This document shows, in pieces, positions 31,921 through 54,031 of a stretch of DNA of 64,000 bases. Position numbers and translations under genes: made by a program. This stretch comes from Paludisphaera mucosa. Lineage in GTDB: Bacteria > Planctomycetota > Planctomycetia > Isosphaerales > Isosphaeraceae. Within the stretch, counting starts at the first letter, position 1; the number at the start of each line of letters is the position of its first letter. Under the pieces are notes generated by a model that was not told the DNA's origin, made no database searches, and saw only the letters and a list, made by a program, of their open reading frames with translations. The stretch is taken from positions 1,354,808-1,418,807 of the forward strand of contig NZ_JARRAG010000001.1 of the NCBI RefSeq assembly GCF_029589435.1, given 5' to 3'.

Positions 31921-34047
31921 GTGTCGCACGAGTCGATCCTCCGGAAGAACGTCTGCCCGCTCGACTGTCCCGACACGTGCAGCATGCTCGTGACGATCCG
32001 TCAGGGGGTGGCCGTCGAGCTGAAGGGGGACCCCGACCACCCTTTCACGCGAGGGGCCCTCTGCGGGAAAATGGCCCGCTACCTCGACCGGGTCTACAGC
32101 GACGATCGGCTGATGCAGCCCCGGAAGCGCATCGGTCGCAAGGGCGAGGGACGGTTCGAGACGATCTCGTGGGACGAGGCGCTCGCGACGATCGCCGAGC
32201 GATTCCGCGCCGTCGCCGACTCGCCCGACGGCCCGCAGGCGATCCTGCCTTACAGCTACTACGGCACGATGGGCAAGCTCCAGGCCAGCAGCCTCGACCG
32301 CCGGTTCTTCCATCGCCTGGGCGCCTCGCTGCTCGACCGCACCATCTGCGCCTCGGCGGGGACCGTCGGCTATGAGTACACGATGGGCCGGGGCCGCCTG
32401 GGGGCGGACCCGCTGGCCGTTCCGGGCTGCAAGTTCGTGGTCAACTGGGGCTCGAATACGGTCAACACCAACGCCCACCTGTGGAGCCTGATGATCGAGG
32501 CCCGCAAGCGGAACGGTGCGACGATCGTCACCGTCGATCCCTACCGCAGCCCGACCGCCGAACGCTCCGACTGGCACATCCAGCCCCGCCCCGGGACCGA
32601 CGCGGCGTTGGCGCTCGGCCTGATGCACGTCGTCTGGCGCGACGGCCTCGCCGATGAGGATTACCTGGCCCGCGCGACCATCGGAGCCGACCGACTCCGG
32701 AAACGCGTCCTCGACGACTACCCGCCCGAACGCACGGCCGCCATCACGGGCGTGGTCGTCGAGACCATCACGAAATTCGCCCGCCGCCTGGCGACCGAAC
32801 AGCCCTCGTTCATCCGCCTGAACTACGGCATGCAGCGTCATCACGGCGGCGGCATGGCCGTCCGGACCATCGCCTGCCTGCCGGCCCTGATCGGCTCGTG
32901 GCGACATCCCGGCGGCGGGGCGATGCTCTCCACCAGCGGCGCCTACGACTTCGACTTGGCCCGGCTCACCCGCCCCGACCTCGCTCCCGCCGGGACCCGC
33001 ACCGTCAACATGAACCAGCTCGGCGAGGCCCTCGCGGGCGAGCTGCCGGGCCCGCCGATCCGCGCCCTGTACGTCTACAACTGCAACCCCGCGGCCGTCG
33101 CGCCCAACCAGGCGAAGGTCCTGGAAGGGCTGCGCCGGGAGGACCTCTTCACCGTGGTCCACGAGCTGTTCGCCACCGACACGGTCGACTACGCCGACGT
33201 CGTCCTGCCCGCGACGTCCCAGCTCGAACACGTGGACGTCCACGGCTCGTACGGCCATCATGAAGTGATGTACAACCCGCGATCCATCGAGCCTCGCGGC
33301 GAGTGTCGCTCGAACAACGACGTCTTCCGCGCCCTGGCCGCGCGACTCGGCTTCGAGGCCGACTTGTTCCCCGACGACGAGACGCTCATCCGCGAGGCCC
33401 TCGACGGCGGCCCGACGCTCCGCGGCGTGACCCTGGAACGGCTGAAGGAAGCCGGCTCGGTCCGCCTGAACCTCCCCGATTCGTACGCCCCGTTCGCCGC
33501 CGGCGTCTTCCCCACACCCTCGGGCAAGTGCGAGTTCTACTCCGAGCGGATGGCCCGCGACGGCCTCGACCCCCTCCCCACCTACATCCCCCCCCTGGAA
33601 GACCCCCAGTCGCGCCCCGACCTGGCCGCGCGGTTCCCGATCCAGCTCCTGAGCCCGCCCCGTCCCCAGTTCCTCAACTCCACGTTCGCGAACTCGCCCC
33701 GCCACCGCAGTCGCGCCGGCGAGCCGACCGTGGAGATGGACGCCGACGACGCCCGGTCGCGACACGTCGCCGACGGCGACCGGGTCGAGGTCTTCAACGC
33801 CCGCGGTTCGTTCCGCGCCCGCGCATCGCTCTCCGGCGCGGTCCGCCCCGGCGTCGCCGTCGCGACCGGGATCTACTGGAACAAGCTCTCCCCCGGCCTC
33901 TCCAACGTCAACAGCACCACCTCGTCCGCCCTCACCGACATGGGCGGCGGCGCCACCTTCTTCGACAACCTCGTCGAGATCCGGGCTGCGGCCGAAACGA
34001 CCGGCGAGCCGTCGAAGGTCGACGGCGCGGCGATAGGCTCGAAGTGA
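31921..34047 (+). CDS. Molybdopterin-dependent oxidoreductase (formate dehydrogenase/DMSO reductase superfamily)
   Basis: A 708-residue protein from GTG 31921. An N-terminal 4Fe-4S motif is visible (VCPLDCPDTCSMLV, with the fourth Cys in RGALCGK). GKMARYLDRVYSDDRLMQP and FETISWDEALATIAERFR follow, the usual entry into the molybdopterin domain. Mo-bis-MGD contacts include CKFVVNWGSNTVNTNAH and VVDPYRSPTAERSDWHI-like segments; a C-terminal molydopterin dinucleotide-binding domain contains SPPRPQFLNSTFAN and GDRVEVFNARGSF. No Tat signal is evident, so it is probably cytoplasmic. Substrate unknown. The frame is open upstream but the residues there are unrelated. Confidence 0.88.
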   Translation: MSHESILRKNVCPLDCPDTCSMLVTIRQGVAVELKGDPDHPFTRGALCGKMARYLDRVYSDDRLMQPRKRIGRKGEGRFETISWDEALATIAERFRAVADSPDGPQAILPYSYYGTMGKLQASSLDRRFFHRLGASLLDRTICASAGTVGYEYTMGRGRLGADPLAVPGCKFVVNWGSNTVNTNAHLWSLMIEARKRNGATIVTVDPYRSPTAERSDWHIQPRPGTDAALALGLMHVVWRDGLADEDYLARATIGADRLRKRVLDDYPPERTAAITGVVVETITKFARRLATEQPSFIRLNYGMQRHHGGGMAVRTIACLPALIGSWRHPGGGAMLSTSGAYDFDLARLTRPDLAPAGTRTVNMNQLGEALAGELPGPPIRALYVYNCNPAAVAPNQAKVLEGLRREDLFTVVHELFATDTVDYADVVLPATSQLEHVDVHGSYGHHEVMYNPRSIEPRGECRSNNDVFRALAARLGFEADLFPDDETLIREALDGGPTLRGVTLERLKEAGSVRLNLPDSYAPFAAGVFPTPSGKCEFYSERMARDGLDPLPTYIPPLEDPQSRPDLAARFPIQLLSPPRPQFLNSTFANSPRHRSRAGEPTVEMDADDARSRHVADGDRVEVFNARGSFRARASLSGAVRPGVAVATGIYWNKLSPGLSNVNSTTSSALTDMGGGATFFDNLVEIRAAAETTGEPSKVDGAAIGSK

Positions 34048-34128
34048 TCTCGACGAATCGAGGCGTTCGCCCGGCGGGATCCGGGCCGAGGGCTCGCTCC
34101 GCTTTTCCGCGATTCACCCGCCGTGATG

Positions 34129-34158
34129 TTGACAGCCCGGGGGTCGAAATCCTATCCT
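34129..34158 (+). promoter_or_regulatory. Sigma70-like promoter of tRNA-Phe
   Basis: TTGACA (34129-34134) and TATCCT (34153-34158) are separated by 18 bp, and the tRNA begins 21 nt after the -10. The -35 is perfect consensus and the -10 matches four of six positions. Confidence 0.75.
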
Positions 34159-34179
34159 GGGCCTCTCGCCAACGCGTGC

Positions 34180-34252
<73 letters not shown>

Positions 34253-34264
34253 CTCCCTCCCCTG

Positions 34265-34288
34265 CCACTCGCCCCTTCGAGTGGTTTT
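34265..34288 (+). terminator. Intrinsic terminator of tRNA-Phe
   Basis: A 7-bp stem CCACTCG (34265-34271) / CGAGTGG (34278-34284) with a 6-nt loop is followed directly by TTTT and CCC. It lies 12 nt after the tRNA. Confidence 0.75.
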
Positions 34289-34367
34289 CCCGTCGATTCG
34301 GGTTCTCATGCCCCGCTCCGGGACCCAGAGACCTCGCCGGGCTCGCTCAGGAGCGTCCGCCGCGCGA

Positions 34368-34514
34368 ATGACCGTTGATATCAATGAATTCTTTTATAAG
34401 GGCGCGAAGGACGCTGCGGCGGGTCGCTTCGAAAGCGGTGAAGCCGTCGCAGGGTGCGTCCCGGAGGAGGCTTGCGACGGCTTCGATGTTCTTCGTCGGG
34501 AGCTGGGGATCTAG
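34368..34514 (+). CDS. Possible small protein between tRNA-Phe and the prophage edge
   Basis: A 48-codon frame from ATG 34368 gives an acidic product starting MTVDINEFFYKGAKDAAAG and ending RRELGI. The stop codon lies inside the tRNA-Gln remnant. The composition is protein-like and no other gene is supported in 34289-34502, but the length is short and no family is recognised. Confidence 0.3.
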   Translation: MTVDINEFFYKGAKDAAAGRFESGEAVAGCVPEEACDGFDVLRRELGI

Positions 34515-34548
34515 GATTCGAACCTAGACTAACTGATCCAGAGTCCGT
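34503..34548 (-). other. 3' half of tRNA-Gln(CTG): presumed prophage attachment site
   Basis: On the minus strand this reads as the 3' part of a tRNA. The anticodon loop CTCTGGA (anticodon CTG) is followed by the stem half TCAGT, a 4-nt variable loop TAGT, a perfect T-arm (CTAGG-TTCGAAT-CCTAG), the acceptor strand ATCCCCA and discriminator G. The 5' acceptor TGGGGAT and a proper D-arm are absent upstream (34549-34600), so the gene is incomplete. This is the pattern left when an element integrates into the 3' part of a tRNA gene, with the intact tRNA then restored at the other end of the element. Confidence 0.65.
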
Positions 34549-34798
34549 TCTATGGCGACTTCTAAATCCGTCCCTCGGATCGGGTTAGCGGCCGGGTCCG
34601 AAACCGTGCGCTGTCGTGGCGCTGTCGGGAGCCCTCGGCGGCCTCTCGCGGGACTCCTGGAATCCTCGCGGGCGTCGATGTAAGATAAAGCGGTTTCGAG
34701 GTTTCTCGACGCGGAGAGGCCCTGCGGACGACGACCCGGTTCGCGCTTCCGATGGCACGATCACGACGATCCGACGGTCTCCGACGAAGGAACAACCC

Positions 34799-35152
34799 AT
34801 GTCATACGCCGGCCCGCAGGAAGGCCCGCCCACGATCCTGTTCGATCCCCTCGCCGCCCTCTGGCGCGAGCGGAACGACCGCCGCCGCCGGTCCTCCGCG
34901 TTCCACCCTCGGTCCGGGCCCGGGGGGACGGGCCTGATCGTCCCCGGCCCCGGGCCGGCGCCCGATCCCCAGTGGGAACGGTGGATCGAGCGGTTCCGGC
35001 TCGACCTCTCGCCGCTGATCTATCCGGTCGAGCTCTACCTCCACGCCGAGCCGCCGACGCCCCGGCCGGGCATGGACGCGCGGTGGCACGAGGCCCTAGG
35101 CTTCTGGGTGGCCGTCCGCCTGGGGCCGACCAGGTCGATGGGCTCCGGCTGA
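34799..35152 (+). CDS. Hypothetical prophage protein
   Basis: A 117-residue protein from ATG 34799, preceded by AAGGAACAACCC as a plausible ribosome binding site. It starts MSYAGPQEGPPTILFDPLAAL, has an Arg-rich stretch, a Pro/Gly linker, and a C-terminal part (WERWIERFRLDLSPLIYPVELY) that looks globular. The family is not recognised. It is the first gene inside the presumed left attachment site, with no neighbours within 200 bp. Confidence 0.5.
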   Translation: MSYAGPQEGPPTILFDPLAALWRERNDRRRRSSAFHPRSGPGGTGLIVPGPGPAPDPQWERWIERFRLDLSPLIYPVELYLHAEPPTPRPGMDARWHEALGFWVAVRLGPTRSMGSG

Positions 35153-35356
35153 CGTCCTCGCGGTGCAAGTTTCGCGGCTGCAAACAATTTTTTGAGGACG
35201 TCCTAAACGTAAGAATTTTCAGTGTTTACGCTTAAACGACGTTCGTCATATCAACGAAGTCCGGCCAATTTCCTGATCCGGTTTCCGGCGACATGGTGAA
35301 GACGGGGGCTCCGACGCGACGCCCCCGTCCACTCCTCGACCCGGAGACGCCGCTCG
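35153..35356. other. AT-rich gap at the head of the late block
   Basis: This 204-bp region is markedly AT-richer than its surroundings (TGCAAACAATTTTTTGAGG, TAAACGTAAGAATTTTC, GTTTACGCTTAAAC). It precedes the long run of closely packed late genes, so it is the natural place for a late promoter or regulatory site. No consensus pair is convincing. Confidence 0.35.
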
Positions 35357-35602
35357 ATGTCGATCGCATCCCTCGCCAAGCTCCTCCCGCTTGTGAAGCA
35401 GCTCGTCCCGATCGTCAAAGCGGCCTGGCCGATCATCCTCGCCATCCTCGCCGTCTTCCACGACGGCACGCCCGACGCCTCGACCGGGGCCGTCCTGGGC
35501 ACGATCGCCGTCTCGCACACGCTCGGCCGCCCCAACGTGCGCGGCTTCCTCGCCCGGCTTCTCGGCCGCGCCGGCAAGCCGACCCGGCCGCGCGCCGTCT
35601 GA
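35357..35602 (+). CDS. Small membrane protein, possible holin
   Basis: The 81-residue protein has one strong hydrophobic segment (LVPIVKAAWPIILAILAVFH) after an amphipathic N-terminal helix (SLAKLLPLVKQ), and a basic C-terminus (RGFLARLLGRAGKPTRPR). Its size, membrane segment and charged tail are compatible with holins, and its position just before the terminase genes is one where lysis or accessory genes occur. No sequence signature proves this, and no endolysin is next to it. Confidence 0.55.
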   Translation: MSIASLAKLLPLVKQLVPIVKAAWPIILAILAVFHDGTPDASTGAVLGTIAVSHTLGRPNVRGFLARLLGRAGKPTRPRAV

Positions 35603-35774
35603 CTCGACCGATCCCGCCCGCGATCCATCTCCACCTCGGTTCGGCCCCCGATCTCTCCGGCGGGGTCCGGGCCCACTCCCCCCGGCGACGACGAGGCCGC
35701 CGGGAAGCGGGGCCGGAGGCTCTCCCCCTCCGGCCCCGGGTTTATTCATCCCCCCGAACCGCCGAGGCCCCGCC

Positions 35775-36122
35775 GTGGACCACCCCGCGCCGATCCTTTA
35801 CGCGACCACCACGGCCTCCGGCGCGATCACGCTGGACTCGTTCCTCCGCTGGTGCGCGACGCCGAACGGCGTGGACTTCCTGAAGCTGCTCGCCGCCGGC
35901 CTGTTCACCGCGATCACGGCCGCGATCGCCCTCCGCACCCAGGTCGTCCAGGCCCGGATCGAGCGCGAGCGGATCCGCCGCGAGGAGCAGGCCGCCGTCC
36001 GCGAATCGGCCCGGCACGACCAGTGGGAGGCCGCGCTCCTGGAGCTGAAGCTGGCCAGGCTCCACGCCGTCGACCCGCGGGCGCCTCTCCCCGCCGACCT
36101 GGTCGTCCCGGAGCCACGATGA
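35775..36122 (+). CDS. Membrane-anchored coiled-coil protein
   Basis: A 115-residue protein from GTG 35775. A hydrophobic helix at about 38-56 (LKLLAAGLFTAITAAIALRT) is followed by a highly charged helix (VQARIERERIRREEQAAVRE) likely to form a coiled coil. The arrangement resembles small phage membrane proteins, including inner-membrane spanin-like or holin-associated subunits, but this is only topology. Its TGA overlaps the ATG of the small terminase gene by 4 bp. Confidence 0.55.
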   Translation: MDHPAPILYATTTASGAITLDSFLRWCATPNGVDFLKLLAAGLFTAITAAIALRTQVVQARIERERIRREEQAAVRESARHDQWEAALLELKLARLHAVDPRAPLPADLVVPEPR

Positions 36123-36604
36123 ACGACATCGTCCCGGCGCGTCCGGCGCATGAAAAAGGGGGCGACGCGGACTGGACGGAGACGTTCCTCTCCGTGCTCG
36201 CCGAGACCGGCAACGTCACGGCCGCCGCCCGGATGGCCGGCGTCAACCGCGACACGCCCTACGGCCGCCGCGAGACCGACTCCGCGTTCGCCAAGGCCTG
36301 GGCGTCCGCCCTGGAGGAGGCGTGCGACGTCCTGGAGCTGGAGGCCCGACGCCGGGCCTACGAGGGGACGAAGGAGCCCGTCTTCTACCAGGGCTACCAG
36401 TGCGGCGTGGTGAAGAAGTACTCCGACACGTTGATGATCGTCCTGCTGAAGGCGCACCGGCCCGAGAAGTTCCGCGAGAAGTTCTCGGCCGAGCACTCGG
36501 GGGAGATCAAGGTGGTCGTCGAATATGCCGACGGAGATCCGGCTTACGCTCCCCCGGCCGCACCCCGGCCAGGCGACGATCCTCCGCTCGACGGCCCGGT
36601 TTAA
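36119..36604 (+). CDS. Terminase small subunit-like protein
   Basis: A 161-residue DNA-binding protein. A helix-turn-helix is visible at about 25-50 (VLAETGNVTAAARMAGVNRDT, then YGRRETDSAFAKAWASALEEA). This is followed by the LEARRRAYEGTKEPVFYQG block and SDTLMIVLLKAHRPEKFREK, the classic small-terminase ending where R-P-E-x-(F/Y)-R recurs. It recognises the packaging site and loads the large subunit. It starts in an ATGA overlap with the preceding gene and overlaps the large terminase gene by 80 bp. Confidence 0.85.
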   Translation: MNDIVPARPAHEKGGDADWTETFLSVLAETGNVTAAARMAGVNRDTPYGRRETDSAFAKAWASALEEACDVLELEARRRAYEGTKEPVFYQGYQCGVVKKYSDTLMIVLLKAHRPEKFREKFSAEHSGEIKVVVEYADGDPAYAPPAAPRPGDDPPLDGPV

Positions 36605-37751
36605 CGTCGTCGACTGCGGGCGGCGGTTCGGCAAGACCGTCGCCGCCCAGATCCGGATCGTCAAGCCGGCGCTCGCCGGCCATCCGACGGCCTGGTTCGC
36701 CCCCGAGTACAAATTCCTGGCCGAGCCCTGGGACTCGCTCTCGAGCATCCTTCGACCGGTCGTCGTCGGCTCCAGCAAGCAGGAGCGACGCATCCGCCTC
36801 CTGGGCGGCGGGTGCATCGACTTCTGGAGCCTGGACGACCCCGACTCCGGCCGGTCCCGGAAGTACAAGCACGTCGTCGTCGACGAGGCGGCCAAGGCCC
36901 GGTACCTGGAGGCCGCCTGGACCAAGGCGATCCGGCCGACCCTGACCGACCTGAAGGGGACGGCCGATTTCTGGAGCACGCCCCGGGGCCGGGACTATTT
37001 CTGGAAGCTCTACGTCCGCGGCGAGGACGAGCTCGAGCCGGAGTACCGATCGTTCCGGTTCCCGACCCTCGCCAACCCGTACATCGACCCCGCCGAGATC
37101 GAGGACGCCCGCCGCCAGCTCCCCGACCGCGTGTTCCGCCAGGAGTACCTGGCCGAGTTCCTGGAGGACGCCGGAGGAGTGTTCAGACACGTCGCCGACG
37201 CCGTCGATCGGGGCAGGCTTCTGCCCGAGGAGCCCCGCCGCGTCGGGGCCTACGCCCTGGGCGTCGACCTCGCCCGCCTGGAGGACTTCACCGTCCTCTG
37301 CGTGCTCGACCAGTCGGGCCGGCAGGTCTACTTCGAACGCTTCAACCAGATCGACTGGACGCGGCAGGTCGCGAGCATCAAGGCCGTCGCCGAGCGATAC
37401 CGGGCGACCGTCGTCCTCGACGCCTCCGGCCTGGGCGACCCGATCTACCAGCAGCTCGCCGACCTCGGCCTGGCCGTCGAGCCCTACGTGCTGACCTCGG
37501 CGTCGAAGAAGCCGCTGATCGACGAGCTGGCGATGGGCCTGGACGCCGGCAAGATCCGCTTGATGGACGTCGCGGAGCAGGAGGCCGAGCTGGTCGCCTA
37601 CGAGTACCAGATGACCAAGAGCCGCAACTGGACCGCCAACGCCCCCGAGGGAATGCACGACGACTGCGTGATCGCCCTGGCGCTCGCGTACCACGGCTGC
37701 CAGGCCGTCCGGCCGAGCTGGGGCATCCGCACGTCGGGCCGGGCCCGCTGA
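36525..37751 (+). CDS. Terminase large subunit
   Basis: A 408-residue packaging motor. The ATPase half has Walker A at about 32 (CGRRFGKT) and Walker B at about 125 (KHVVVDEAAK), and a coupling motif at WSTPRGRDYF. The RNaseH-like nuclease half has YALGVDLARLEDFTVLC with the first metal-binding Asp, TVVLDASGLGDPIYQQL with the second, and MHDDCVIALALAYHG with the last. It cleaves concatemers and pumps DNA into the prohead. ATG 36525 lies 80 bp inside the small subunit gene, a usual arrangement. Confidence 0.96.
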   Translation: MPTEIRLTLPRPHPGQATILRSTARFNVVDCGRRFGKTVAAQIRIVKPALAGHPTAWFAPEYKFLAEPWDSLSSILRPVVVGSSKQERRIRLLGGGCIDFWSLDDPDSGRSRKYKHVVVDEAAKARYLEAAWTKAIRPTLTDLKGTADFWSTPRGRDYFWKLYVRGEDELEPEYRSFRFPTLANPYIDPAEIEDARRQLPDRVFRQEYLAEFLEDAGGVFRHVADAVDRGRLLPEEPRRVGAYALGVDLARLEDFTVLCVLDQSGRQVYFERFNQIDWTRQVASIKAVAERYRATVVLDASGLGDPIYQQLADLGLAVEPYVLTSASKKPLIDELAMGLDAGKIRLMDVAEQEAELVAYEYQMTKSRNWTANAPEGMHDDCVIALALAYHGCQAVRPSWGIRTSGRAR

Positions 37752-37827
37752 CGCTCTCGCACCGCCCCGGCGGGGCCATAGTTACCAGAGGACCAGATCC
37801 GATCCGACAGAGCAGGGGGGGGCCGCC

Positions 37828-38184
37828 TTGAATCCGACCGCCGAGCTACGCACGCCGCCGCCGACCGCCTACGTCCGCGAGCACATGACGCCCGACCAGC
37901 GCGAGAAGGTGAACCGCCTGCTCGACGCCGGCGAGCCCGTCTACTGCCACGTCGGCGTGGAAGGCGAGGTCTACGTCCTGAGCCAGGCGGAGCAGGACGA
38001 GGTCGACCCGCCCGACCTCGGGCCCGGGGCACCCGTCCCGAGCATCATGGGCGCCGGCCCGTTCCGAGGCCGCCGCGGGCCTCGCAAGGCCGAGGAGGCC
38101 GCCCTCTACCGCCCCGACGCCCCGCCGGCGACCAACCGGAAGATGCGCCGGGCCGACAAGGCGAACGCCCGGAGGGCGCGTTGA
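37828..38184 (+). CDS. Hypothetical prophage protein
   Basis: A 118-residue protein from TTG 37828, with a purine-rich G run upstream as ribosome binding site. The first half (YVREHMTPDQREKVNRLLDAG, then VYCHVGVEGEVYVLS) looks like a small globular domain; the C-terminus is basic (RKMRRADKANARRAR). No family is recognised. It is the first of four genes that start with TTG or GTG, the next three each overlapping the preceding stop codon. Confidence 0.55.
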   Translation: MNPTAELRTPPPTAYVREHMTPDQREKVNRLLDAGEPVYCHVGVEGEVYVLSQAEQDEVDPPDLGPGAPVPSIMGAGPFRGRRGPRKAEEAALYRPDAPPATNRKMRRADKANARRAR

Positions 38185-38369
38185 GCCTGCTGGAGATCGT
38201 ACCCGACGTCTGGATCGACCCCGCCGCCGTGGTCGCCGTCACCGAGCGCCACGCGGGCCGCGAGGTCGCGATCCACCTGGCCGGCCTCTGCCGGCCGATC
38301 ACCGTCCCCGGCTCCGTCGAGCTGGTCGCCCGCCTGGTCCTCAAGCATCGAGTCGGGAGGGCCGCGTGA
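38181..38369 (+). CDS. Small hypothetical prophage protein
   Basis: A 62-residue protein from TTG 38181, in a TTGA overlap with the preceding stop and with GGAGGG 5 nt upstream as a good Shine-Dalgarno sequence. The sequence (LLEIVPDVWIDPAAVVAVTE, REVAIHLAGLCRPITVPGS) looks like a compact beta domain. Function unknown. Confidence 0.6.
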   Translation: MSLLEIVPDVWIDPAAVVAVTERHAGREVAIHLAGLCRPITVPGSVELVARLVLKHRVGRAA

Positions 38370-38731
38370 CCGAAGCCGAGAAGGCCCGATTCGCCCGTCG
38401 CTTCGCCGCCAACGTCCTGGGCGGCGTCCTCAGCATTCCCGAGCCGAAGACGGGTACCGGCTCGAACATCGCACCGGAGCCGCCCCCGCTCATGACCACG
38501 CAGCGAGCCGTCCACATCGCCCTGGCCTTGCTCGTCTCGCTCTCGGGCGTCTACCTCGCCCTGGCCCCGAAGCTCGTGCTCCTGCTGGCCGGCCTGGCCC
38601 TCCGCCGCCCACTCGCCGTCACCTGGGCCTCCTGGCTCGGCGTCCACGTCTGCCTGGGCTTCGGCTGGTACGTCCTGATCCTCTGCACCGCCATCAAGAA
38701 TCCGCCGCCCTCGAACCGGAGCCGACATTGA
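38366..38731 (+). CDS. Membrane protein of unknown function
   Basis: A 121-residue protein from GTG 38366 in a GTGA overlap with the preceding gene. A charged N-terminus (TEAEKARFARRFAANVLGG) precedes two or three hydrophobic segments (VHIALALLVSLSGVYLALAP, LVLLLAGLAL, WLGVHVCLGFGWYVLILC). It could be a holin or accessory membrane protein; nothing in the sequence decides this. Confidence 0.55.
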   Translation: MTEAEKARFARRFAANVLGGVLSIPEPKTGTGSNIAPEPPPLMTTQRAVHIALALLVSLSGVYLALAPKLVLLLAGLALRRPLAVTWASWLGVHVCLGFGWYVLILCTAIKNPPPSNRSRH

Positions 38732-39450
38732 TCCCCTTCGGCTATCGAAGCGACTGCAAGGGATGCGCTCGGGGCTGTCCGGGATGCCTGAAGGTCGACC
38801 CGCCGACCAGGTACTCCGCCTTCGTTGACTACGGCCGGCCCCTGGTCGGGAAGCCGTTCCTGAAGGCGGCGATGGACGCGGTCCGGGCCGGGGCCGATAA
38901 GGCCTTCGCCGAGCGGGTCGTCGACCTGGGGAAGCTCATGGAGCCGTTCATGCTGAAGCCCGAGCCCTGCGTAACCGGCTGCGAGAACTGCCGCGCCGTC
39001 GCCTGCGACGCGAAGCCGCACCGCTTCACCGTCACCGTCAACGGGCGTCCGCGCGGACGCTGCATCGGCGTGGACCTCGGGACCGGACCCGACGTCTCCG
39101 TTTTCAGGATCACCACGAAAGAGGCCTGCATGCCGCCCGACGCCGCCGCCCCGAAGCCGACCCTGACCCAGGCGATCGCCGCCCACAAGACGAAGGCCGA
39201 CCACGCGAAGGTCGCCGACGAGCTGGCCGAGCAGGCCAGGCGGACCGCCCAGGCCGCCCGGCAGGCCGAGCAGGACGCGGCCAAGGCCGTGCTGGTGCTG
39301 GCCGGGATCCTGGACTGTGAGAAGGAGCCCGCCTTCGGCCGCCCCATCGTGCCGGTCGACCGCGAGCTGTTCGTGGTGCTCAACTGCTCCTGGATGAACG
39401 GCCCCAACCGCTACGCCTATCGCCTGGCGAAGGCCTTCGTCGCCGACTGA
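38728..39450 (+). CDS. Cysteine-rich hypothetical prophage protein
   Basis: A 240-residue protein from TTG 38728, in a TTGA overlap. The N-terminus has a dense Cys cluster (DCKGCARGCPGCLK) and a second pair at about 85-95 (CVTGCENCRAVAC), suggesting a metal-binding fold. A long Ala/Lys-rich helix follows (ADHAKVADELAEQARRTAQA), then a short C-terminal domain (FVVLNCSWMNGPNRYAYRLA). The two-part design could be a fusion. An internal ATG at 39130 could start a shorter version. Function unknown. Confidence 0.55.
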   Translation: MIPFGYRSDCKGCARGCPGCLKVDPPTRYSAFVDYGRPLVGKPFLKAAMDAVRAGADKAFAERVVDLGKLMEPFMLKPEPCVTGCENCRAVACDAKPHRFTVTVNGRPRGRCIGVDLGTGPDVSVFRITTKEACMPPDAAAPKPTLTQAIAAHKTKADHAKVADELAEQARRTAQAARQAEQDAAKAVLVLAGILDCEKEPAFGRPIVPVDRELFVVLNCSWMNGPNRYAYRLAKAFVAD

Positions 39451-39502
39451 CCCGTCCCGCTTGACGACCGTCAAGCAACCTCCTCCGCCCCGAGCCCCGC
39501 CT

Positions 39503-39763
39503 ATGTCCGTCACCCTCGCCCAGCTCATCGCCGACTCCGACGACGCCCTGGCCGCTAAGGTCGCGGCCAAGGCCGCCTACGACGCCGCCAGGGCCGCCGC
39601 CTCCGCGGCGGACGCCCTGGTGATGACCGCCCTGCTGGCCGAGCCGTCGACCCGGGCCGCCTACCACGACGCCGACGACGTGTTGCACGTCGCCGCCCGT
39701 TGGCCGGGCCCGGACGGGCGGCCGTTCGCGATCCTGGCCGTCGACGACGCCGACCCCGCCTGA
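39503..39763 (+). CDS. Small helical hypothetical prophage protein
   Basis: An 86-residue protein from ATG 39503 (a TTG at 39461 in the same frame would add 14 residues). An Ala-rich helix (LIADSDDALAAKVAAKAAYD) is followed by a short beta-like C-terminus (VLHVAARWPGPDGRPFAILAV). It sits just before the portal gene, where head accessory proteins are often found. The family is not recognised. Confidence 0.5.
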   Translation: MSVTLAQLIADSDDALAAKVAAKAAYDAARAAASAADALVMTALLAEPSTRAAYHDADDVLHVAARWPGPDGRPFAILAVDDADPA

Positions 39764-39803
39764 CGCCCGCCCCCTCCACCCCTCCCACCGGACGCCCCCC
39801 ATC

Positions 39804-41234
39804 ATGGCATTCCCATCGATCCGCGGCCTGGCCGCGAAGGCCGCGCGCGCGATCGCCGAGCAGGTGATCGCGATCGGCGGAGCCGGGCCCTGGTCGCGCT
39901 GGGGCGGCTCGGGCTGGGGCGGCCGGCCGATCCGCACGCTGGCCCCCGGGGCCACCCACGACTGGGAGCAGGAGGCCGGCAACCTCTGGCAGAACTCGAT
40001 CGTCGCCCTCTGCCTGGCGTGGATCGGCGACCGGGTCGCGAGGCCCAAGCTGAAGGTCTGCCGGATCGGCCGCAACGGCGTGCCGGTGGAGATCCCCGGG
40101 CACGGCCTGGTCGAGCTGTGGACGCGGCCGAACGAGCACTACGGGCGGCGGACCCTCGAAAAGGCGATCGTCTTGAGCCTGAAGGTCGACGGCAACGCCT
40201 ACCTCTGGAAGCGCCGCGACAACGCCGGCCGCGTCATGGAGCTGTGGTATATCCCGCACTTCCGCTGCCGCCCGCTCTGGCCGGCCGACGGCCTGGAGTA
40301 CATCTCGGGCTATCGGATCAGCGGCGACGGCCGGCTCTGGGACGTCCCCAAGACCGAGATCATCCACATCCGGGACGGCGTCGACCCGCTGAACGAGCGG
40401 TTCGGCCTGTCGGCCCTGAAGGCCCAGCTCCGCGAGGCGGCGACCGACAACGGGGCCGCGTCGCACACCGCCGGCCTGATGATGAACCAGGGCGTCCCGG
40501 CCTACGCCCTCGTCCCGGACGTGCCCGCGGGCCCAGCCTTCCAGGCGGGCCGGGGCCCGAGCGACGCCCAGGCCAACCAGATCGTCGGCGAGTGGCAGGA
40601 CGAGTTCTCGCGCGACGGGGCCGGCGGCGTCGCGGTCCTCCAAGGGCCCTGGAAGATCGAGAAGGTCGGCTACTCCCCCGAGGAGTTGATGGTCGACAAG
40701 CTCCCCCAGCAGGCGATCGCCCGGCTGGCGACCGCGACGGGCGTGGTCCTCATGTCGCTGGGCATGCCGGACCCGAACAAGACCTACGCCAACCTGGGCG
40801 AGGCCAACCGCACGAGCTGGGGCACGATCGTCGCCACCCAGGAGCTGATCGCCGAGGCCCTCCGCGACGACCTGATCACCGAGGTCATCCAGATCAAGGG
40901 AAGGATCACCCCGGCCTCGGGCCCGCTCGCCCTGGTCGTGATCTACGACTACAGCCAGGTGGCCGAGTTGCAGGAGAGCCAGGACGCCGTCATGACCCGG
41001 GCCTGCCTGGGCTTCGAGAAGGGCCTGCTGACCCGCAACGAAGGCCGCGAGATGGTCGGCCAGGACCCGGTCGACGACGGCGACGTCTTCGCCTCCGACC
41101 TGGCCGCCGCGGCGGCGCCCGAGGAGCCGGACGACGAGGAAGATCCGGCCGCCCCCGAAGAGGGCGGCGGCGAAAAGCCGGGCGACGACGAGCCCGCGGC
41201 CCCGGCGAAGAAGGGGTGGCGATGGCGCTACTGA
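39804..41234 (+). CDS. Phage portal protein (HK97 family)
   Basis: A 476-residue protein. Portal signatures include NSIVALCLAWIGDRVARPKL near the N-terminus, VELWTRPNEHYGRRTLEKAI (wing region), VDGNAYLWKRRDNAGR, LWYIPHFRCRPLW and IIHIRDGVDPLNERFGLSAL, and the stem or clip part with ANLGEANRTSWGTIV. The C-terminal 50 residues are an acidic/Ala-rich tail. Twelve copies form the head vertex through which DNA enters and leaves. It overlaps the head morphogenesis gene by 13 bp. Confidence 0.94.
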   Translation: MAFPSIRGLAAKAARAIAEQVIAIGGAGPWSRWGGSGWGGRPIRTLAPGATHDWEQEAGNLWQNSIVALCLAWIGDRVARPKLKVCRIGRNGVPVEIPGHGLVELWTRPNEHYGRRTLEKAIVLSLKVDGNAYLWKRRDNAGRVMELWYIPHFRCRPLWPADGLEYISGYRISGDGRLWDVPKTEIIHIRDGVDPLNERFGLSALKAQLREAATDNGAASHTAGLMMNQGVPAYALVPDVPAGPAFQAGRGPSDAQANQIVGEWQDEFSRDGAGGVAVLQGPWKIEKVGYSPEELMVDKLPQQAIARLATATGVVLMSLGMPDPNKTYANLGEANRTSWGTIVATQELIAEALRDDLITEVIQIKGRITPASGPLALVVIYDYSQVAELQESQDAVMTRACLGFEKGLLTRNEGREMVGQDPVDDGDVFASDLAAAAAPEEPDDEEDPAAPEEGGGEKPGDDEPAAPAKKGWRWRY

Positions 41235-42157
41235 GAAAGGCCCGGGATATTCCAAGGGATATTCCACGCCGCAAGGCGGAGGCCAACACGTTCCGCCTGC
41301 CGACCGGCGAGCCGCTCCGGAAGGAGCTGGTCAAGGCCGCCCGCGTGCAACGCCGGGCCGTCCTGGCGTGGGCACGGGCCGGCGGGACGAAGGGCGGGCC
41401 GCCGCTGGAGACGAAGGTCGAGCCCCAGGGGCCGCTGGACTTCTCCGGCTTCCCGGGCTGGGACGCCTTCCGGCTCGGCGCGCTGAATATGTCCGAGCGG
41501 ATGACCCCGGTCCTCTCCTACTTCTGGGAGTCGGCGGCGGCGGCGTTCGCCCCCCGGGTCGGCCTCGACGCCGACGCCTGGAGCGTCGTCGACGCCAACG
41601 CCGAGGCCGTCCTCCAGGAGCAGGCCCTGGCGTTCTGCCAGGCGACGCTCGACACCACCAGCCTGTCGATCGACGCCGCGGTCCGGGCCGTCCGTGCCGA
41701 GCTGCAGGAGGGGGTCGTCGCCCGCGGCGAGTCGGTCGCCGCCCTCACGAAGCGGATCAACGCGATCTTCGACGGGGCCGAGACCTGGCGGGCCCGGCGG
41801 ATCGCCCAGACCGAGACGTCCCGCACCGTCCACGCCGCCCAGGAGCGGACCGCGATCGGCTCGGGCGTCGTCGCCGGCTGGCGGTGGCTGCTCTCGGCCG
41901 ACGCCTGCCCGCTCTGCAAGACGATCGCCCGCCGCGCCCCGATCGTCCGGCTGGGCCGGCCCTTCGCGATCCTGTCCGACGACCCGCACTACGGCGTCGT
42001 GAAGTACCCGCCCCTGCATCCGCACTGCAACTGCACCGTCGAGGAGATCCTCGACGTCGACGCCCACGGCCTGGAATGGTCGCCGACCCTGGACCGCCCC
42101 GAGCCCCAGCCCGAGGACATCGACGATGGCCACCCCGACGAAGGCGGCGACGCCTGA
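41222..42157 (+). CDS. Phage head morphogenesis protein (SPP1 gp7/Mu F-like)
   Basis: A 311-residue protein. After a basic N-terminus with a duplicated RDIP unit, a helical region leads to the family core: RRIAQTETSRTVHAAQERTA, then WRWLLSADACPLCKTIARRAPI and PLHPHCNCTVEEIL. This contains the conserved D-x-C-x-x-C and the H-P-x-C-x-C site of Mu F/SPP1 gp7 proteins. Such minor head proteins bind the portal and aid early head assembly. ATG 41222 lies within the end of the portal gene; the 3' end overlaps the protease gene by 32 bp. Confidence 0.92.
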   Translation: MALLRKARDIPRDIPRRKAEANTFRLPTGEPLRKELVKAARVQRRAVLAWARAGGTKGGPPLETKVEPQGPLDFSGFPGWDAFRLGALNMSERMTPVLSYFWESAAAAFAPRVGLDADAWSVVDANAEAVLQEQALAFCQATLDTTSLSIDAAVRAVRAELQEGVVARGESVAALTKRINAIFDGAETWRARRIAQTETSRTVHAAQERTAIGSGVVAGWRWLLSADACPLCKTIARRAPIVRLGRPFAILSDDPHYGVVKYPPLHPHCNCTVEEILDVDAHGLEWSPTLDRPEPQPEDIDDGHPDEGGDA

Positions 42158-43091
42158 CGCGCTGCTGCACAAATCCTTCGACGTCGACCTGGCCGGCAAG
42201 GGCCTGGGCTTCGACGAGGACGGCTCCGGCGGCTTCACCCTGTACGCCGCGATCTTCGGCAACGTCGACCGCGTCGGCGACGTCATCGAGCCCGGCTCGT
42301 TCCTGAACCTCGACGAGTTCAGCGCCGACGGCGTCGGCCTCTACGAGCACGACCTCTCCGCCGTGCCGATCGCCTACGTCGTATCGGCCGTCCAGGACTC
42401 CAAGGGACTGAGGATCGAGGGCCGGTTCCACTCGACGCCCGAGGCCCAGAAGGTCCGGACCGTGGTGAAGGAGCGGACCGCCGCCGGCAAGTCGGTGAAG
42501 TGCAGCCTGGGCTACAAGGTCGCGAGGGCCGCGAAGGTCCAGGTCGGCGGCCGCGAGGTCCAGTCGATCCGGGCCCTCCGGGTCTACGAGTTCAGCTTCG
42601 TGAACCTCCCCGCCAACCCGCTCGCCGGCGTCGTCGACGTCAAGAGCGCGACCCGTCAAGAGGAGCCGATGGAACACGACGACGACCGCCCCGGGATGCT
42701 GGACAGCGTCAAGCAATGGCTGGGCTTCGCGACCAAGTCGGGCCGCGCGATGTCGAAGGCCAACCACGCCGCCCTGCGCTCCTACGCCGACCAGCTCGAC
42801 GAGCACGGCGACAAGGGCCTGATGCACGCCAAGAGCCTCCGGGCCGCCGCGAAGGGCCTGGAGGAGCACGGCAACGGGACGAAGGCCCTGGCCGCCGCGA
42901 TGCACAAGCACCTGGAGACGTTCGACCCCAACGCCAAGCCCGACCCCGACGACGGCGGCGACGAGCCGGACGGCGACGACGCCCCGCCGGCGAAGAAGGC
43001 CTTCGACGACGCCGGCCACCGGGCTCGCGTCCTGAAGCTCCGGCGGTTCGTCGACGGCCTGGCCGACGACGAGGACGCCGCCGCCGCCTGA
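42126..43091 (+). CDS. HK97-type prohead protease (family U35)
   Basis: A 321-residue protein with a self-contained protease domain in the first 170 residues. FTLYAAIFGNVDRVGDVIEPG is the entry block, the catalytic His is in LYEHDLSAVPIAY, the Ser in SVKCSLGYKVARAA, and VYEFSFVNLPANPLAGV closes the fold. The C-terminal half is a helical, charged extension (KSGRAMSKANHAALRSYADQ and an Asp-rich linker) that may be a scaffold. It cleaves the delta domain of the capsid protein and itself during maturation. Confidence 0.94.
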   Translation: MATPTKAATPDALLHKSFDVDLAGKGLGFDEDGSGGFTLYAAIFGNVDRVGDVIEPGSFLNLDEFSADGVGLYEHDLSAVPIAYVVSAVQDSKGLRIEGRFHSTPEAQKVRTVVKERTAAGKSVKCSLGYKVARAAKVQVGGREVQSIRALRVYEFSFVNLPANPLAGVVDVKSATRQEEPMEHDDDRPGMLDSVKQWLGFATKSGRAMSKANHAALRSYADQLDEHGDKGLMHAKSLRAAAKGLEEHGNGTKALAAAMHKHLETFDPNAKPDPDDGGDEPDGDDAPPAKKAFDDAGHRARVLKLRRFVDGLADDEDAAAA

Positions 43092-43183
43092 CCACCTCCC
43101 CCGCCGCACCCCTCAGCGACCCCCGCCGACGTCGGCGGGCGGCCCGATCGCCGCACGTCCCCCCCTCCCCGCGAGACCCACAC

Positions 43184-44629
43184 ATGACCCCGGACCAGAT
43201 CCAGGCCCTCCGCGACCAGATCGCCAGCAAGTCGACCGAGCTGTCCCGCCTCGTCAACGCCGACGCCCCCACCGGCGCGGACCTGACCAAGGCCGAGAAG
43301 CTCCACGAGGAGATCGCCAAGGCCCGCCTCGACGTCAAGGGCGCGACCGAGGACGCCCGCCGCCACGCCGCCCTGAGACTCTCCGCGAAGGACGCCCAGG
43401 AGTGGCTCGCCGCCCCCGCCGGCGACGCCCCGTTCTCGGGCCGCCAGCCGGCCGCCGGCGAGGCCGGCCGCGTCGAGGTCAAGGGCTTCGAGGAGGCCGG
43501 GCACGGCCGCTACCGCCGCGACAAGGGCGGCGACGTGCTCTGCCTGGAGGAGGTCGGCCCCGGCCAGTTCGGCGTGAAGAAGTGGGAGCTGTTCCAGTCC
43601 TTCGAGTACAAGAAGGACTTCACGCAGTACCTCCGCAAGGGCAACCGGGCGATCGACGACGTCCGGTTCAAGACGCTCGTCGAGGGCATCGACGACCAGG
43701 GCGGCGTCTTCGCCCCGGCCGAGATGATCCAGCGGATCATCGGCCGCGAGCCCGCCCCCACCCAGCTCCGGGGCCTGGTGCAGAGCATCACGACCGGCCG
43801 CGACGTGGTCGAGATGCCGCGGAAGCAGTACTCGGCCGACGACAAGTACACGACCGCGTTCCGCCCCACCTGGACGGGCGAGATCCCCTCGGACGGCACC
43901 GGGGCGCTCCACCTGGTCGACGACAAGAACCTGCTGGGCTCCATCCAGATCCCCGTCCACACGGCGATGCTCTCCGCCCCGCTGTCGAAGAACCTGATCG
44001 AGGACTCCGCCTTCCCGGTCCAGAGCTGGCTGGAGAACGAGCTGGGCCAGGTCATCGACCTGCTCTACGAGGACATGATCCTCAACGGCAACGGCGTCTT
44101 CCAGCCGACCGGCATCCTCCTGGGCGCGGCGTCGGCCAACAACGGCACGACCGTCCGGCCCGACCTGCCCGAGGTCGTGCTCTCGGGCTCGGCCGGGGCC
44201 CTGAGCTACGACGGCCTGGACGACCTCCAGACCGCCCTGGCGGCCCAGTACGAGAACGAGAACACCCGCTGGGTGATGAACAAGAAGAGCACCCTCCGGG
44301 CGATCCGGAAGCTGAAGGACTCGAACAACCGGCCGCTGTTCACCACCGGCGCGGCCGACTACGGCATCACCGGGGCCCGGGGCCGCGTCCTGCTGGGCGA
44401 CCCGATCGTGGTCTCCGCCTTCGCCCCCAACGTCGGGGCCGGGGCCTTCCCGGTGGTCTACGGCGACCTCCGCGGGTACTACCTGGCCCAGCGGATCGGC
44501 TTCTCGATCCAGGTCCTGGACCAGACCCGGGCCCGCGCCAACCAGATCGAGCTGGTCGGCCGCGTCCGCTTCGGCGGCAAGCCGGTCGAGCCGTTCCGGC
44601 TGAAGATCGGCAAGAGCGACAACTCCTGA
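43184..44629 (+). CDS. Major capsid protein (HK97 fold)
   Basis: A 481-residue protein with a coiled-coil N-terminal delta/scaffold region (TPDQIQALRDQIASKSTEL, EKLHEEIAKARLDVKGATED) and the HK97 shell domain from about residue 150. Recognisable parts are LRGLVQSITTGRDVVEMPRK, IQIPVHTAMLSAPLSKNLIE, LGQVIDLLYEDMILNGNG, RWVMNKKSTLRAIRKLKDSN and VLLGDPIVVSAFAPNVGAGA. The N-terminal region would be removed by the upstream protease. ATG 43184; 92 bp separate it from the protease gene. Confidence 0.95.
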   Translation: MTPDQIQALRDQIASKSTELSRLVNADAPTGADLTKAEKLHEEIAKARLDVKGATEDARRHAALRLSAKDAQEWLAAPAGDAPFSGRQPAAGEAGRVEVKGFEEAGHGRYRRDKGGDVLCLEEVGPGQFGVKKWELFQSFEYKKDFTQYLRKGNRAIDDVRFKTLVEGIDDQGGVFAPAEMIQRIIGREPAPTQLRGLVQSITTGRDVVEMPRKQYSADDKYTTAFRPTWTGEIPSDGTGALHLVDDKNLLGSIQIPVHTAMLSAPLSKNLIEDSAFPVQSWLENELGQVIDLLYEDMILNGNGVFQPTGILLGAASANNGTTVRPDLPEVVLSGSAGALSYDGLDDLQTALAAQYENENTRWVMNKKSTLRAIRKLKDSNNRPLFTTGAADYGITGARGRVLLGDPIVVSAFAPNVGAGAFPVVYGDLRGYYLAQRIGFSIQVLDQTRARANQIELVGRVRFGGKPVEPFRLKIGKSDNS

Positions 44630-44693
44630 CCCACGCCCCGCCGCCGCGCCCCCGGGCCGGCGGCGGGCCCTCCCCTCGTCGAGGATCCGGGCC

Positions 44694-45221
44694 TTGCAAG
44701 TCACCATCTCGCTCCCGACGCGCGAGCAGCTCGCGATCGCCCTGGTCTCGATGGTCCTGGCGGGCCTGACGGCGACGATCGTGAACCGCGTCCAGCGCCC
44801 CGACGTCCCCGCCCCGGCCCCCTCGCCGTACGCGCCGACGCCGGCCCCGACCCCCTACACGCCGCCGCCGGCCCCGCCCTCGCCCGACTGGATCCCGACG
44901 CCGACGCCCAGGCCGGCGGTGGACCCGGACGCCGGGCCGGCGGCGGCGGGCCGCTCCTACGCCGCCGCCCTGGTCCGGGGCTACTCCGCCGGCTGGCGGA
45001 CGGCCGCCGACAAGCTGGAGGCCGGGGCCGCGATCCCCGACGCCCTGGCCGCCGTCGGCCCCGCCTGGACCGCCTACCGCGTGCCGTTCTTCGACCGCGA
45101 CGTCCAGCCCGTCTTCGACCAGGTCGTCCCCTCCGACTCGCCGCCCGCCGCGGTGACGCCCGACAAGCGACGGGCCCTCGCCCGGGCGTTCCGGGCGTTC
45201 GCGGCCGGGCTCGCCCCGTAG
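44694..45221 (+). CDS. Membrane-anchored Pro-rich prophage protein
   Basis: A 175-residue protein from TTG 44694. One hydrophobic helix near the start (LAIALVSMVLAGLTATIV) is followed by a Pro/Ala/Thr-rich linker (PYAPTPAPTPYTPPPAPPSP) and then a soluble helical domain (GRSYAAALVRGYSAGWRTAA). It resembles a signal-anchor protein with an extracytoplasmic domain. Location between capsid and decoration genes is unusual; a lysis or host-interaction role is possible but not shown. Confidence 0.6.
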   Translation: MQVTISLPTREQLAIALVSMVLAGLTATIVNRVQRPDVPAPAPSPYAPTPAPTPYTPPPAPPSPDWIPTPTPRPAVDPDAGPAAAGRSYAAALVRGYSAGWRTAADKLEAGAAIPDALAAVGPAWTAYRVPFFDRDVQPVFDQVVPSDSPPAAVTPDKRRALARAFRAFAAGLAP

Positions 45222-45280
45222 CCTCCGCCCGCCGCCGCCGCCGCCGTCCCTCCCCCCTTCCATCACATCGAGGATCACGC

Positions 45281-45730
45281 ATGTTCCGCCACAACATCAC
45301 CCGAGTGGTCGGCATCGACGTCGCGATCGACCCGGTCGCCGCCGGCGCGACGGACGCGAACGGCAAGGTGATCGACACCCTGGGGTACGAGTCGATCGCG
45401 TTCGCGATCAACATCGGCACCATCACGAGCACCGCCGTCACCGGCCTGAAGATCCAGAGCGGCGCGCTCGCCAACGGGTCGGACATGGCCGACGTCGCCG
45501 GCTCCGCCGTGGCGATCGCCGACACGCAGTCCAACAAGGTCGCCTGGTCGGCCGAGGTCCACCGGCCCTCGAAGCGGTACGTCCGCGTCGTGGTCACCCG
45601 GGCCACCGCGAACGCCGTCGTCGCCGGCGGGGTCGCGATCCTGGGCCGGGCCGGGTACCAGCCCGCCGCCGCCGGCGCGAACCAGGCCGCCACCACGCCC
45701 GCCGTCCCCCCCGTCCTGCTCAACGCCTGA
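45281..45730 (+). CDS. Probable capsid decoration or head fibre protein
   Basis: A 149-residue beta-rich protein rich in Ala, Val and Thr (VVGIDVAIDPVAAGATDANG, GTITSTAVTGLKIQSGALAN, VRVVVTRATANAVVAGGVAI). Small beta proteins directly after the major capsid gene are usually head decoration or stabilising proteins. GAGGATCACGC upstream of ATG 45281 fits a ribosome binding site. No family signature is certain. Confidence 0.55.
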   Translation: MFRHNITRVVGIDVAIDPVAAGATDANGKVIDTLGYESIAFAINIGTITSTAVTGLKIQSGALANGSDMADVAGSAVAIADTQSNKVAWSAEVHRPSKRYVRVVVTRATANAVVAGGVAILGRAGYQPAAAGANQAATTPAVPPVLLNA

Positions 45731-45748
45731 TCCACCCGAGGCCCGACC

Positions 45749-46327
45749 ATGCCCGAAACCTACGCCGACCTGGCGACGGTCCTGCTGGCCTGGCCGGGCC
45801 TCGCGACCGGCCGCGACCCGATCGAGCAGCAGGCGATCGTCGACGACGCCAACGCCGCCGTCCGGGACTTCGTCGACCGCGACCTGCTCATGGCCGAGCG
45901 GACCGAGGTCCTCTCCGGCCGCGGGACCGCCCGCCTCTGGCTCTCCGTGAAGCCGGTCCTCTCGGTCGACGCCGTCTCGCTCTGGGGCTCGCCGATCGAC
46001 GGCGGCCCCGGCGAGGGCTGGGACTTCGACCCCGACTCCGGCTGCCTGGTGCGGGGCCGCCGCCTCTCCGCCGTCCGCTTCGGGCCCAAGTGGCCGGCGG
46101 GCTTCCGCAACGTCTCCGTCCGCTACACCGCCGGATACGACGCCGTCCCCGGGGCCGTGCGGCGGGCGACGATCCTGGCCGCCCGGGCGCTGCACGCGAT
46201 GGCGGAGTCGGCCGGGCCCTACAAGAGCGAGTCGCTGGGCGACTGGTCCTACACCCAGGCCGACTCCAAGCCGTTCCTCCGGGACGCCGCCGGCCTGCTC
46301 CTCCCCTACCGTCGCGTCGGGGTCTGA
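45749..46327 (+). CDS. Head-tail connector (gp6-like) protein
   Basis: A 192-residue protein whose opening (MPETYADLATVLLAWPGLA) and early helices (QQAIVDDANAAVRDFVDRDL) match the gp6/gp15-like connectors that bind below the portal. A beta insert follows (RGTARLWLSVKPVLSVDAVS), then VSVRYTAGYDAVPGAVRRATILAAR, typical of these adaptors, and a C-terminus with SWSYTQADSK-like residues. It is separated from the next gene by only 3 bp. Confidence 0.75.
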   Translation: MPETYADLATVLLAWPGLATGRDPIEQQAIVDDANAAVRDFVDRDLLMAERTEVLSGRGTARLWLSVKPVLSVDAVSLWGSPIDGGPGEGWDFDPDSGCLVRGRRLSAVRFGPKWPAGFRNVSVRYTAGYDAVPGAVRRATILAARALHAMAESAGPYKSESLGDWSYTQADSKPFLRDAAGLLLPYRRVGV

Positions 46328-46330
46328 CCC

Positions 46331-46696
46331 ATGCTGACCGACATGCTCGACGACCTGGCGACGATCTCGTCGCTGCCCGTCGCCCGCACCCCCTCGGGGG
46401 CCGCGTCCCGCTCCGCCCCGGTCCTGCTGGCCGAGGGCGTCGCGTGCAAGGTGCGGCGGACCGCCGCCGCCCTGGCCTACGGCAAGTCGCCGCGCGACGA
46501 CGCGCGACGCCAGAAGGTCGACGCCCGGATCTACTTCGCCGGCGACCCGCTCGCCGCCCTGGACCCGCCGCTCCGCCTCTCCACCGGGCACCGCATCGCC
46601 GCCGCCGGCGAGACGTTCGCCGTCCTGGGCGTCGTCGACGTGAACAACATGGGCCGGCTCCTGCACGTGGACTGCGAGGCCGTCGCCGATGCCTGA
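46331..46696 (+). CDS. Head closure / head-tail adaptor protein
   Basis: A 121-residue protein of the stopper type. The C-terminal half (KVDARIYFAGDPLAALDPPL, RIAAAGETFAVLGVVDVNN) has the beta-barrel pattern and the R-I-x-x-x-G-x-x-F-x-V-x-G-V-x-D motif found in gp16/gpFII-like closure proteins. Position between connector and gp10-like genes supports this. It overlaps the next gene by 8 bp. Confidence 0.7.
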   Translation: MLTDMLDDLATISSLPVARTPSGAASRSAPVLLAEGVACKVRRTAAALAYGKSPRDDARRQKVDARIYFAGDPLAALDPPLRLSTGHRIAAAGETFAVLGVVDVNNMGRLLHVDCEAVADA

Positions 46697-47117
46697 CGCC
46701 GAGCTGGAATGGCACGGCGACGAGGCCCTGGCGATGATCCGGGCCCGCGTCGTGCGCTGCCTCCACCGCGCGGCGATCGCCGTGAAGAACCGGGCGAAGG
46801 AGCTGCTCTCCGTGGCCGGCACCGGCCGCGTCGACGGCAAGACGGCCCGCAACGCGAAGGGCCATTTCAAGGCGACGGTCACGCGCTCGAAGCCGGGCGA
46901 GCCGCCCCGGAAGCAGACGGGCCTGCTCCGATCCAAGGTCGCCCACGAGGTCGACGAGGCGACCCTGACCGCGCGGGTCGGCACCAACCTGGAATACGGC
47001 AGGCACCTGGAGCTGGGGACGAAGCGGGGGCTGGCCCCGCGGCCCTGGCTCCGCCGGGCCCTGGCCGAGGTCGCCGCCCGCGTCGAGCAGCTCCTGGACG
47101 GCCTGGGCGAGCCCTGA
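46689..47117 (+). CDS. HK97 gp10-like tail component
   Basis: A 142-residue protein: helical N-terminus with basic residues (CLHRAAIAVKNRAKELLSVA), the PPRKQTGLLRSKVAHEVDE block, and the diagnostic YGRHLELGTKRGLAPRPWLR ending, which corresponds to the Y-A-x-x-x-E-F-G-T...P-R-P-F-x family signature. Known homologues occur at the head-tail junction or tail completion stage. Starts within the end of the previous gene. Confidence 0.85.
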   Translation: MPDAELEWHGDEALAMIRARVVRCLHRAAIAVKNRAKELLSVAGTGRVDGKTARNAKGHFKATVTRSKPGEPPRKQTGLLRSKVAHEVDEATLTARVGTNLEYGRHLELGTKRGLAPRPWLRRALAEVAARVEQLLDGLGEP

Positions 47118-47168
47118 CCGCCCGCCCGCCGCCGCCCCCGCCCCTCCCCACCCCCACAAGGCGAAACC

Positions 47169-49180: not shown

Positions 49181-49204
49181 CCCCAGCCCACCGGAGCCCC
49201 GCCC

Positions 49205-49732: not shown

Positions 49733-49735
49733 CCC

Positions 49736-50275: not shown

Positions 50276-50290
50276 TCAGCGAGGGTTCAA

Positions 50291-50707: not shown

Positions 50708-50787
50708 TCCCGCCGATGGTCGGATGGTCGCCGTCCGACCATCGCTCGCGCGCAGCCCCATCCCCTCCACCCGCCCGAGGCCCGCCC

Positions 50788-51378: not shown

Positions 51379-51404
51379 GGCGGCCGGCTCCGACGGGGCC
51401 CGCG

Positions 51405-51587: not shown

Positions 51588-51588
51588 C

Positions 51589-53109: not shown

Positions 53110-53127
53110 CCCCGAGGAGCCTGACGC

Positions 53128-54030: not shown

Positions 54031-54031
54031 C

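Follow-up and report, generated by a model that had tools for sequence, protein, structure and literature searches.

A temperate tailed phage has very probably integrated into a host tRNA-Gln(CTG) gene, the 3' part of the gene (attB) recombining site-specifically with a 46-bp copy brought in by the phage (attP). The window is the whole stretch of 64,000 nucleotides analysed here (G000:C1:1354808-1418807, in a genome of 8.21 Mb), and positions past its end are given as window-equivalents. We observed two cores, an intact tRNA, phage genes between the cores and one integrase with catalytic residues; the element is an ordinary tRNA-targeting prophage. Its features and those of its flanks are:

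31921..34253, plus strand: host block in the opposite orientation to that in congeners G001, G003 and G005; encodes molybdopterin oxidoreductase and tRNA-Phe
34253..34499: flank outside the left core, up to tRNA-Phe, with a strong hairpin and the 15-mer GTTGATATYRATGAA
34500..34545, minus strand: left attachment core, a displaced tRNA-Gln(CTG) 3' part that begins with the final two bases of the anticodon stem's 5' strand and ends three bases past the discriminator
34546..64000, onward to window-equivalent 77319: prophage between the cores, 42,774 bp
36525..37751, plus strand: terminase large subunit (phrog_2, 1.5e-36; Terminase_6C)
39804..41234, plus strand: portal protein (Phage_portal, 1.3e-37; PHROG)
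41222..42157, plus strand: head morphogenesis or minor head protein
42126..43091, plus strand: HK97-type prohead protease (TIGR01543, over cut-off)
43184..44629, plus strand: HK97-type major capsid protein (Phage_capsid, 1.3e-43)
45749..47117, plus strand: head-tail adaptor (45749-46327) and neck or tail completion (46689-47117)
49736-50275, plus strand: weak tail match, tail completion gp17-like (under the Pfam cut-off)
50291-50707, plus strand: weak tail match, major-tail-like
56774..56971, minus strand: csrA-family gene, directly after the integrase (PF02599, 1.4e-12)
56972..58120, minus strand: tyrosine integrase INT57
58138..58380, minus strand: helix-turn-helix gene adjoining the integrase, weakly excisionase-like (phrog_597, phrog_66; HTH_17 under cut-off); best PHROG match, DNA-binding protein
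61821..64000, minus strand: primase-helicase (DUF5906 / D5-like), the gene running on to window-equivalent 64370
Window-equivalent 77320-77365 (G000:C1:1432127-1432172): right core, inside an intact tRNA-Gln(CTG) at 77322-77393

Attachment cores and the intact tRNA-Gln(CTG)

The left core is an exact 46-bp copy, on the minus strand, of the 3' part of tRNA-Gln(CTG). The original prediction had placed a tRNA half at 34548-34503 of this strand; its presence and place were confirmed, but the exact shared unit is 34500-34545, as identity with the intact gene stops at 34545 and on the other side extends three bases beyond the discriminator at 34503. The half was also correctly described as having anticodon CTG and a perfect T-arm and lacking the D-arm and 5' acceptor strand, and it aligns to the intact gene over tRNA positions 29-71 only. 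ARAGORN called no tRNA at the left core, and the Rfam tRNA model gave the half 18.7 bits against a gathering score of 29.

Searching the whole genome, we found a single other copy of the core, identical at 46/46 positions, at G000:C1:1432127-1432172, all remaining listed matches being weak (E 0.06 or worse); base composition alone predicts about 4e-18 matches of this length per genome. This copy sits within an intact tRNA-Gln(ctg) gene, 13.3 kb past position 64,000, where a repeat had been forecast to lie some 10-60 kb beyond that point in an intact tRNA-Gln. The spacing between the cores is 42,774 bp, and apart from the core the interval 34-78 kb has no exact direct repeat above 18 bp (copies at least 3 kb apart). 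The proposal that the left half is one att core of a prophage therefore holds, given the exact repeat and the phage genes between its copies. The arrangement that would have spoken against it, another intact tRNA-Gln(CTG) with the prophage flanked by a different repeat, was not seen: a second tRNA-Gln(ctg) in a tRNA array at C1:837-843 kb is unrelated in sequence to the split-site tRNA, and the prophage is flanked by no other long direct repeat. The earlier reading of the att site and the prophage is thus supported as a whole.

Two other arrangements of repeats were considered and rejected. No further piece of the core of at least 12 bp was found within the 82 kb examined, including near INT57, where a third copy or fragment could have joined two tandem prophages. 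A 16-bp repeat at 36142 and 73683, taken as a pair of inner att sites, is at chance level by a hand estimate, and its flanks do not match. Separately, the array at G000:C1:836800-843800 contains 23 tRNA genes called by ARAGORN, several with low covariance scores, and is probably part of another mobile element.

Integration of this kind would generate an intact hybrid tRNA at the right end, with its 5' half from the host and its 3' half from the phage, and would leave the host's original tRNA 3' end at 34500-34545. The crossover would have taken place at the anticodon-loop end of the core, catalysed by INT57, which in the prophage would act on an att site about 20 kb away. Insertion at the tRNA is as first proposed, although the word "split" is slightly misleading, since the far end has a complete tRNA and only a displaced 3' copy lies here.

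Gene content and the position of INT57

Genes were predicted with a custom script, and several small proteins were left out of the Pfam scans. Structural and packaging genes are present between the direct repeats: packaging, structural and tail genes occupy the plus strand and are followed on the minus strand by the csrA-family gene, INT57, the excisionase-like gene, the primase-helicase and a UvrD-like helicase, with a sigma-factor-like match also on that strand. Several proteins of the structural block gave no match to anything. The csrA-family gene is followed by a hairpin that looks terminator-like by eye. The stretch at 68-74 kb has a G+C content of 60-65% versus 71-72% in the phage modules; this lower-G+C stretch (window-equivalent 68450-74000, L039:6257-11807) encodes AbiU2-like (HEPN) and trypsin-like genes, possibly a defence cargo. 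When we searched for genomes sharing this layout, relatives of the primase-helicase were found in 66 of 297 genomes, own genome included, and the best of them, on a 10.4-kb contig (G016:C156), was accompanied by no INT57 match.

In tRNA-targeting prophages the integrase gene usually, though not universally, lies beside the attachment site. This is not so here: 22,427 bp separate the left core from the C-terminal end of INT57, and 19,200 bp lie between its N-terminal end and the right core. The original caution that the integrase lies 22 kb away was therefore justified, and a family profile built here, run on frames of at least 60 residues, detected no second integrase in the element or near the cores. 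Pfam scans likewise named no recombinase among the other predicted proteins that were scanned. INT57 itself retains R234, K263, H324, R327, H350 and Y360, which are invariant across nine aligned integrases and which we take to be the catalytic residues of the tyrosine integrase family.

Relatives of INT57 occur in 60 of 99 genomes (own included), and none was found in viral contigs. Loci were examined for 29 of these relatives. In 18, a tRNA encoded on the opposite strand lies at a distance of 8-592 bp from the integrase C-terminal end; for the other 11 ARAGORN called no tRNA in a flank of up to 1.5 kb, and one of these, L075, has a tRNA-like half in its flank. We then placed INT57 in a tree of 39 integrase rows (34 different) out of 45, six having been dropped for an extracted segment below 250 residues (L080 and L084 among them) and one row with a very long branch, L069, having been kept. 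INT57 groups with L071 and L075 (support 95/90 for the trio, 90/78 for INT57 plus L075). L071 lies beside tRNA-Lys(ctt) in an element with a 46-bp repeat, and L075 is 240 bp away from a 3' half that resembles tRNA-Lys and has a 20-bp repeat. The tRNA-Lys(CTT) sequence beside these two nearest relatives also contains GACTCT..ATCAG. As another branch of the tree (L082, L085 and L093) is also found at tRNA-Lys(ctt), target and lineage do not correspond one to one, and the likeness to tRNA-Lys lends weak support. At G035:C16:39209 and 74362 (L358 and L360), a tRNA-Lys-like 3' half is seen at 240 bp from an integrase, and a 20-bp repeat occurs 35 kb away; in the 80 kb read there ARAGORN called no tRNA.

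Insertion at tRNA-Gln(CTG) in relatives and the flanking DNA

The tRNA-Gln(CTG) gene is a recurrent insertion site in relatives. It was matched in 54 of the 59 genomes searched, seven of which (own included; six of the other 58) also have a copy without the 5' part that reaches the end of the tRNA; in G003 and G044 this 3'-half copy is on a different contig from the tRNA. Five of the six other genomes with such copies have an integrase at the 3' end of the intact gene. Of 30 tRNA-Gln loci, own included, two of which offered less than 450 bp to examine, ten gave an integrase-profile match within 1.5 kb of the tRNA 3' end, five strong and convergent and five weak (E 1e-5 to 1e-10). The five strong integrases form one clade (support 99/94), and INT57 is outside it. 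The islands in G003, G008, G013, G017 and G028 resemble our element in having the same tRNA and the same kind of 3'-half duplicate; they differ in length, 7-15 kb in the four with both copies on one contig (in G003 the copies are on two), and in carrying, at the tRNA 3' end, an integrase of this separate clade, unlike INT57.

The gene on the 5' side of tRNA-Gln, which we take to be LemA-like and which the NCBIfam MamQ model matches below cut-off, adjoins tRNA-Gln in four of five congeners. A genome scan with this gene revealed no close relative among the matches listed, the best identities being 62-68%. On the other side gene order is rearranged. The oxidoreductase of the host block is 25 kb from tRNA-Gln in G001, 12 kb in G005 and more than 200 kb in G003, is megabases off in G002 and is on another contig in G004. 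None of the five congeners yielded a clean empty site, the kind of evidence that had been suggested as alternative support. In G001, an integrase lies alongside tRNA-Phe, which has a partial copy 14.5 kb away.

The DNA just outside the left core resembles that just inside the right core. The 15-mer GTTGATATYRATGAA is found at 34374-34388 and at window-equivalent 77122-77136, in the same orientation relative to the core; these are the only two exact copies in the genome, and there are five in 45 genomes, these two included. Both flanks also contain strong hairpins, with z values of -3.4 outside the left core and -4.0 inside the right core. A plain alignment of the two flanks was equalled in score by 28 of 500 random genomic pieces and by at least 1 of 200 shuffles, therefore only the hairpins and the 15-mer support the likeness. 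These two features indicate that DNA left of 34500 may be derived from the element, possibly as a remnant of an earlier related one. We set aside the idea that the 15-mer encodes a protein C-terminus: FI(D/N)IN closes both frames, but these are short, and the other three genomic hits are in unrelated frames.

Alternative explanations and comparison with known phages

Integration of the phage at tRNA-Gln(CTG) is supported by the exact 46-bp direct repeat, one copy of which is in an intact tRNA-Gln(CTG) while the other is a bare 3' half. It is further favoured by the phage modules between the two copies, the G062 prophage flanked by tRNA-Arg(tcg) copies, the conserved gene on the 5' side of tRNA-Gln, the 3'-half copies of this tRNA in six other genomes, the retained catalytic residues of INT57 and, weakly, the tRNA-Lys sequences beside its nearest relatives. 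Against it stand the 22.4 and 19.2 kb between INT57 and the cores, the placement of INT57 outside the tRNA-Gln clade, the hairpin and 15-mer shared by the flanks and the lack of a clean empty site. That the tRNA-Gln half has nothing to do with the phage, being a decayed tRNA or resembling one by chance, would fit its score under the Rfam tRNA cut-off, but is extremely improbable given its exact identity to the intact gene over 46 bp, at about 4e-18 expected by chance, at the very edge of the phage genes. The distance of the integrase leaves three accounts: int and att may be truly separate, the element may be nested, or its right half may have been inverted. Under the account of a real separation, INT57 would belong to the early genes, together with the excisionase-like gene and csrA, and would act on att at a distance of about 20 kb, which would free the control of integration from the usual int-att module; its lineage would have moved from tRNA-Lys(CTT) to tRNA-Gln(CTG) by way of their near-identical anticodon stem-loops. 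We put this forward tentatively, as a possibility that may well prove wrong. Our literature search found no paper on this prophage or on an integrase so distant from att.

It is unlikely that the element is nested, i.e., that the tRNA-Gln repeats bound an older island which has lost its integrase and into which a phage with INT57 came later by another site. The relatives' tRNA-Gln islands, with their own integrase clade and 7-15 kb in the four single-contig cases, would be a precedent, the central position of INT57 and its place outside that clade point the same way, and the lower G+C content at 68-74 kb makes the element patchy. However, no second pair of direct repeats above 18 bp is present in 34-78 kb (a few exact 16-bp repeats would arise by chance, by hand estimate), no integrase-profile match lies near the cores, and any inner element reaching from terminase to helicase would again have INT57 at its centre. 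An inversion after integration, in which the right half (about 56-77 kb) flipped and carried the integrase from beside the right core to the centre, appears rather improbable. With this block flipped back, INT57 would be on the plus strand, its C-terminal end about 1 kb away from the tRNA, and would be oriented as in the 18 relatives that have a tRNA nearby. Yet no inverted repeat longer than 12 bp connects 55401-57100 with 76501-77330, three small genes follow INT57, unlike in those relatives that have a tRNA within the next 600 bp, and INT57 stands close to the end of a series of minus-strand genes.

The portal gene is present in three of 45 genomes of the family, own included, and the terminase search of viral contigs returned at least 80 loci; one viral contig, IMGVR_UViG_3300036792_000278, matches nine genes over the compared stretch and also gave two integrase matches of its own. 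A related prophage in a genome of the same family (G062:C360) shares with ours 15 homologous packaging and structural genes in the same order, the orientation of the core and a tRNA target. In contrast to ours, it is at tRNA-Arg(tcg) with a core of 57 bp, one copy inside that tRNA; of its two integrase-profile matches, the weaker (E 5e-9) is in a frame starting 88 bp from the left core and the stronger (E 1.5e-15) is 5.6 kb from that core.

Here, both ends have been fixed for a prophage with most of the modules to be expected, in a probable planctomycete. The best plasmid match of a 3-kb piece from a small contig was 'Isosphaeraceae bacterium EP7' (69.7% over 26%), which weakly supports this placement. 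The report on mycobacteriophage Boilgate describes a tyrosine integrase for which attB is the 3' half of a tRNA gene (PMC10865867). Like Boilgate as described there, ours is a tRNA-targeting temperate tailed phage with a tyrosine integrase, the core here being 46 bp (PMC10865867). The tRNA-dependent lysogeny set out in that source, in which a short core fails to rebuild the tRNA and the phage carries a replacement (PMC10865867), is not matched by our element, with its 46-bp core and intact tRNA at one end; ARAGORN called no tRNA inside the element, either in its window part or in L039. The mechanism of integration is already textbook, and the separated integrase is the unusual point: in Boilgate the attP region is immediately upstream of int (PMC10865867), whereas some 20 kb lie between integrase and att site in our element.
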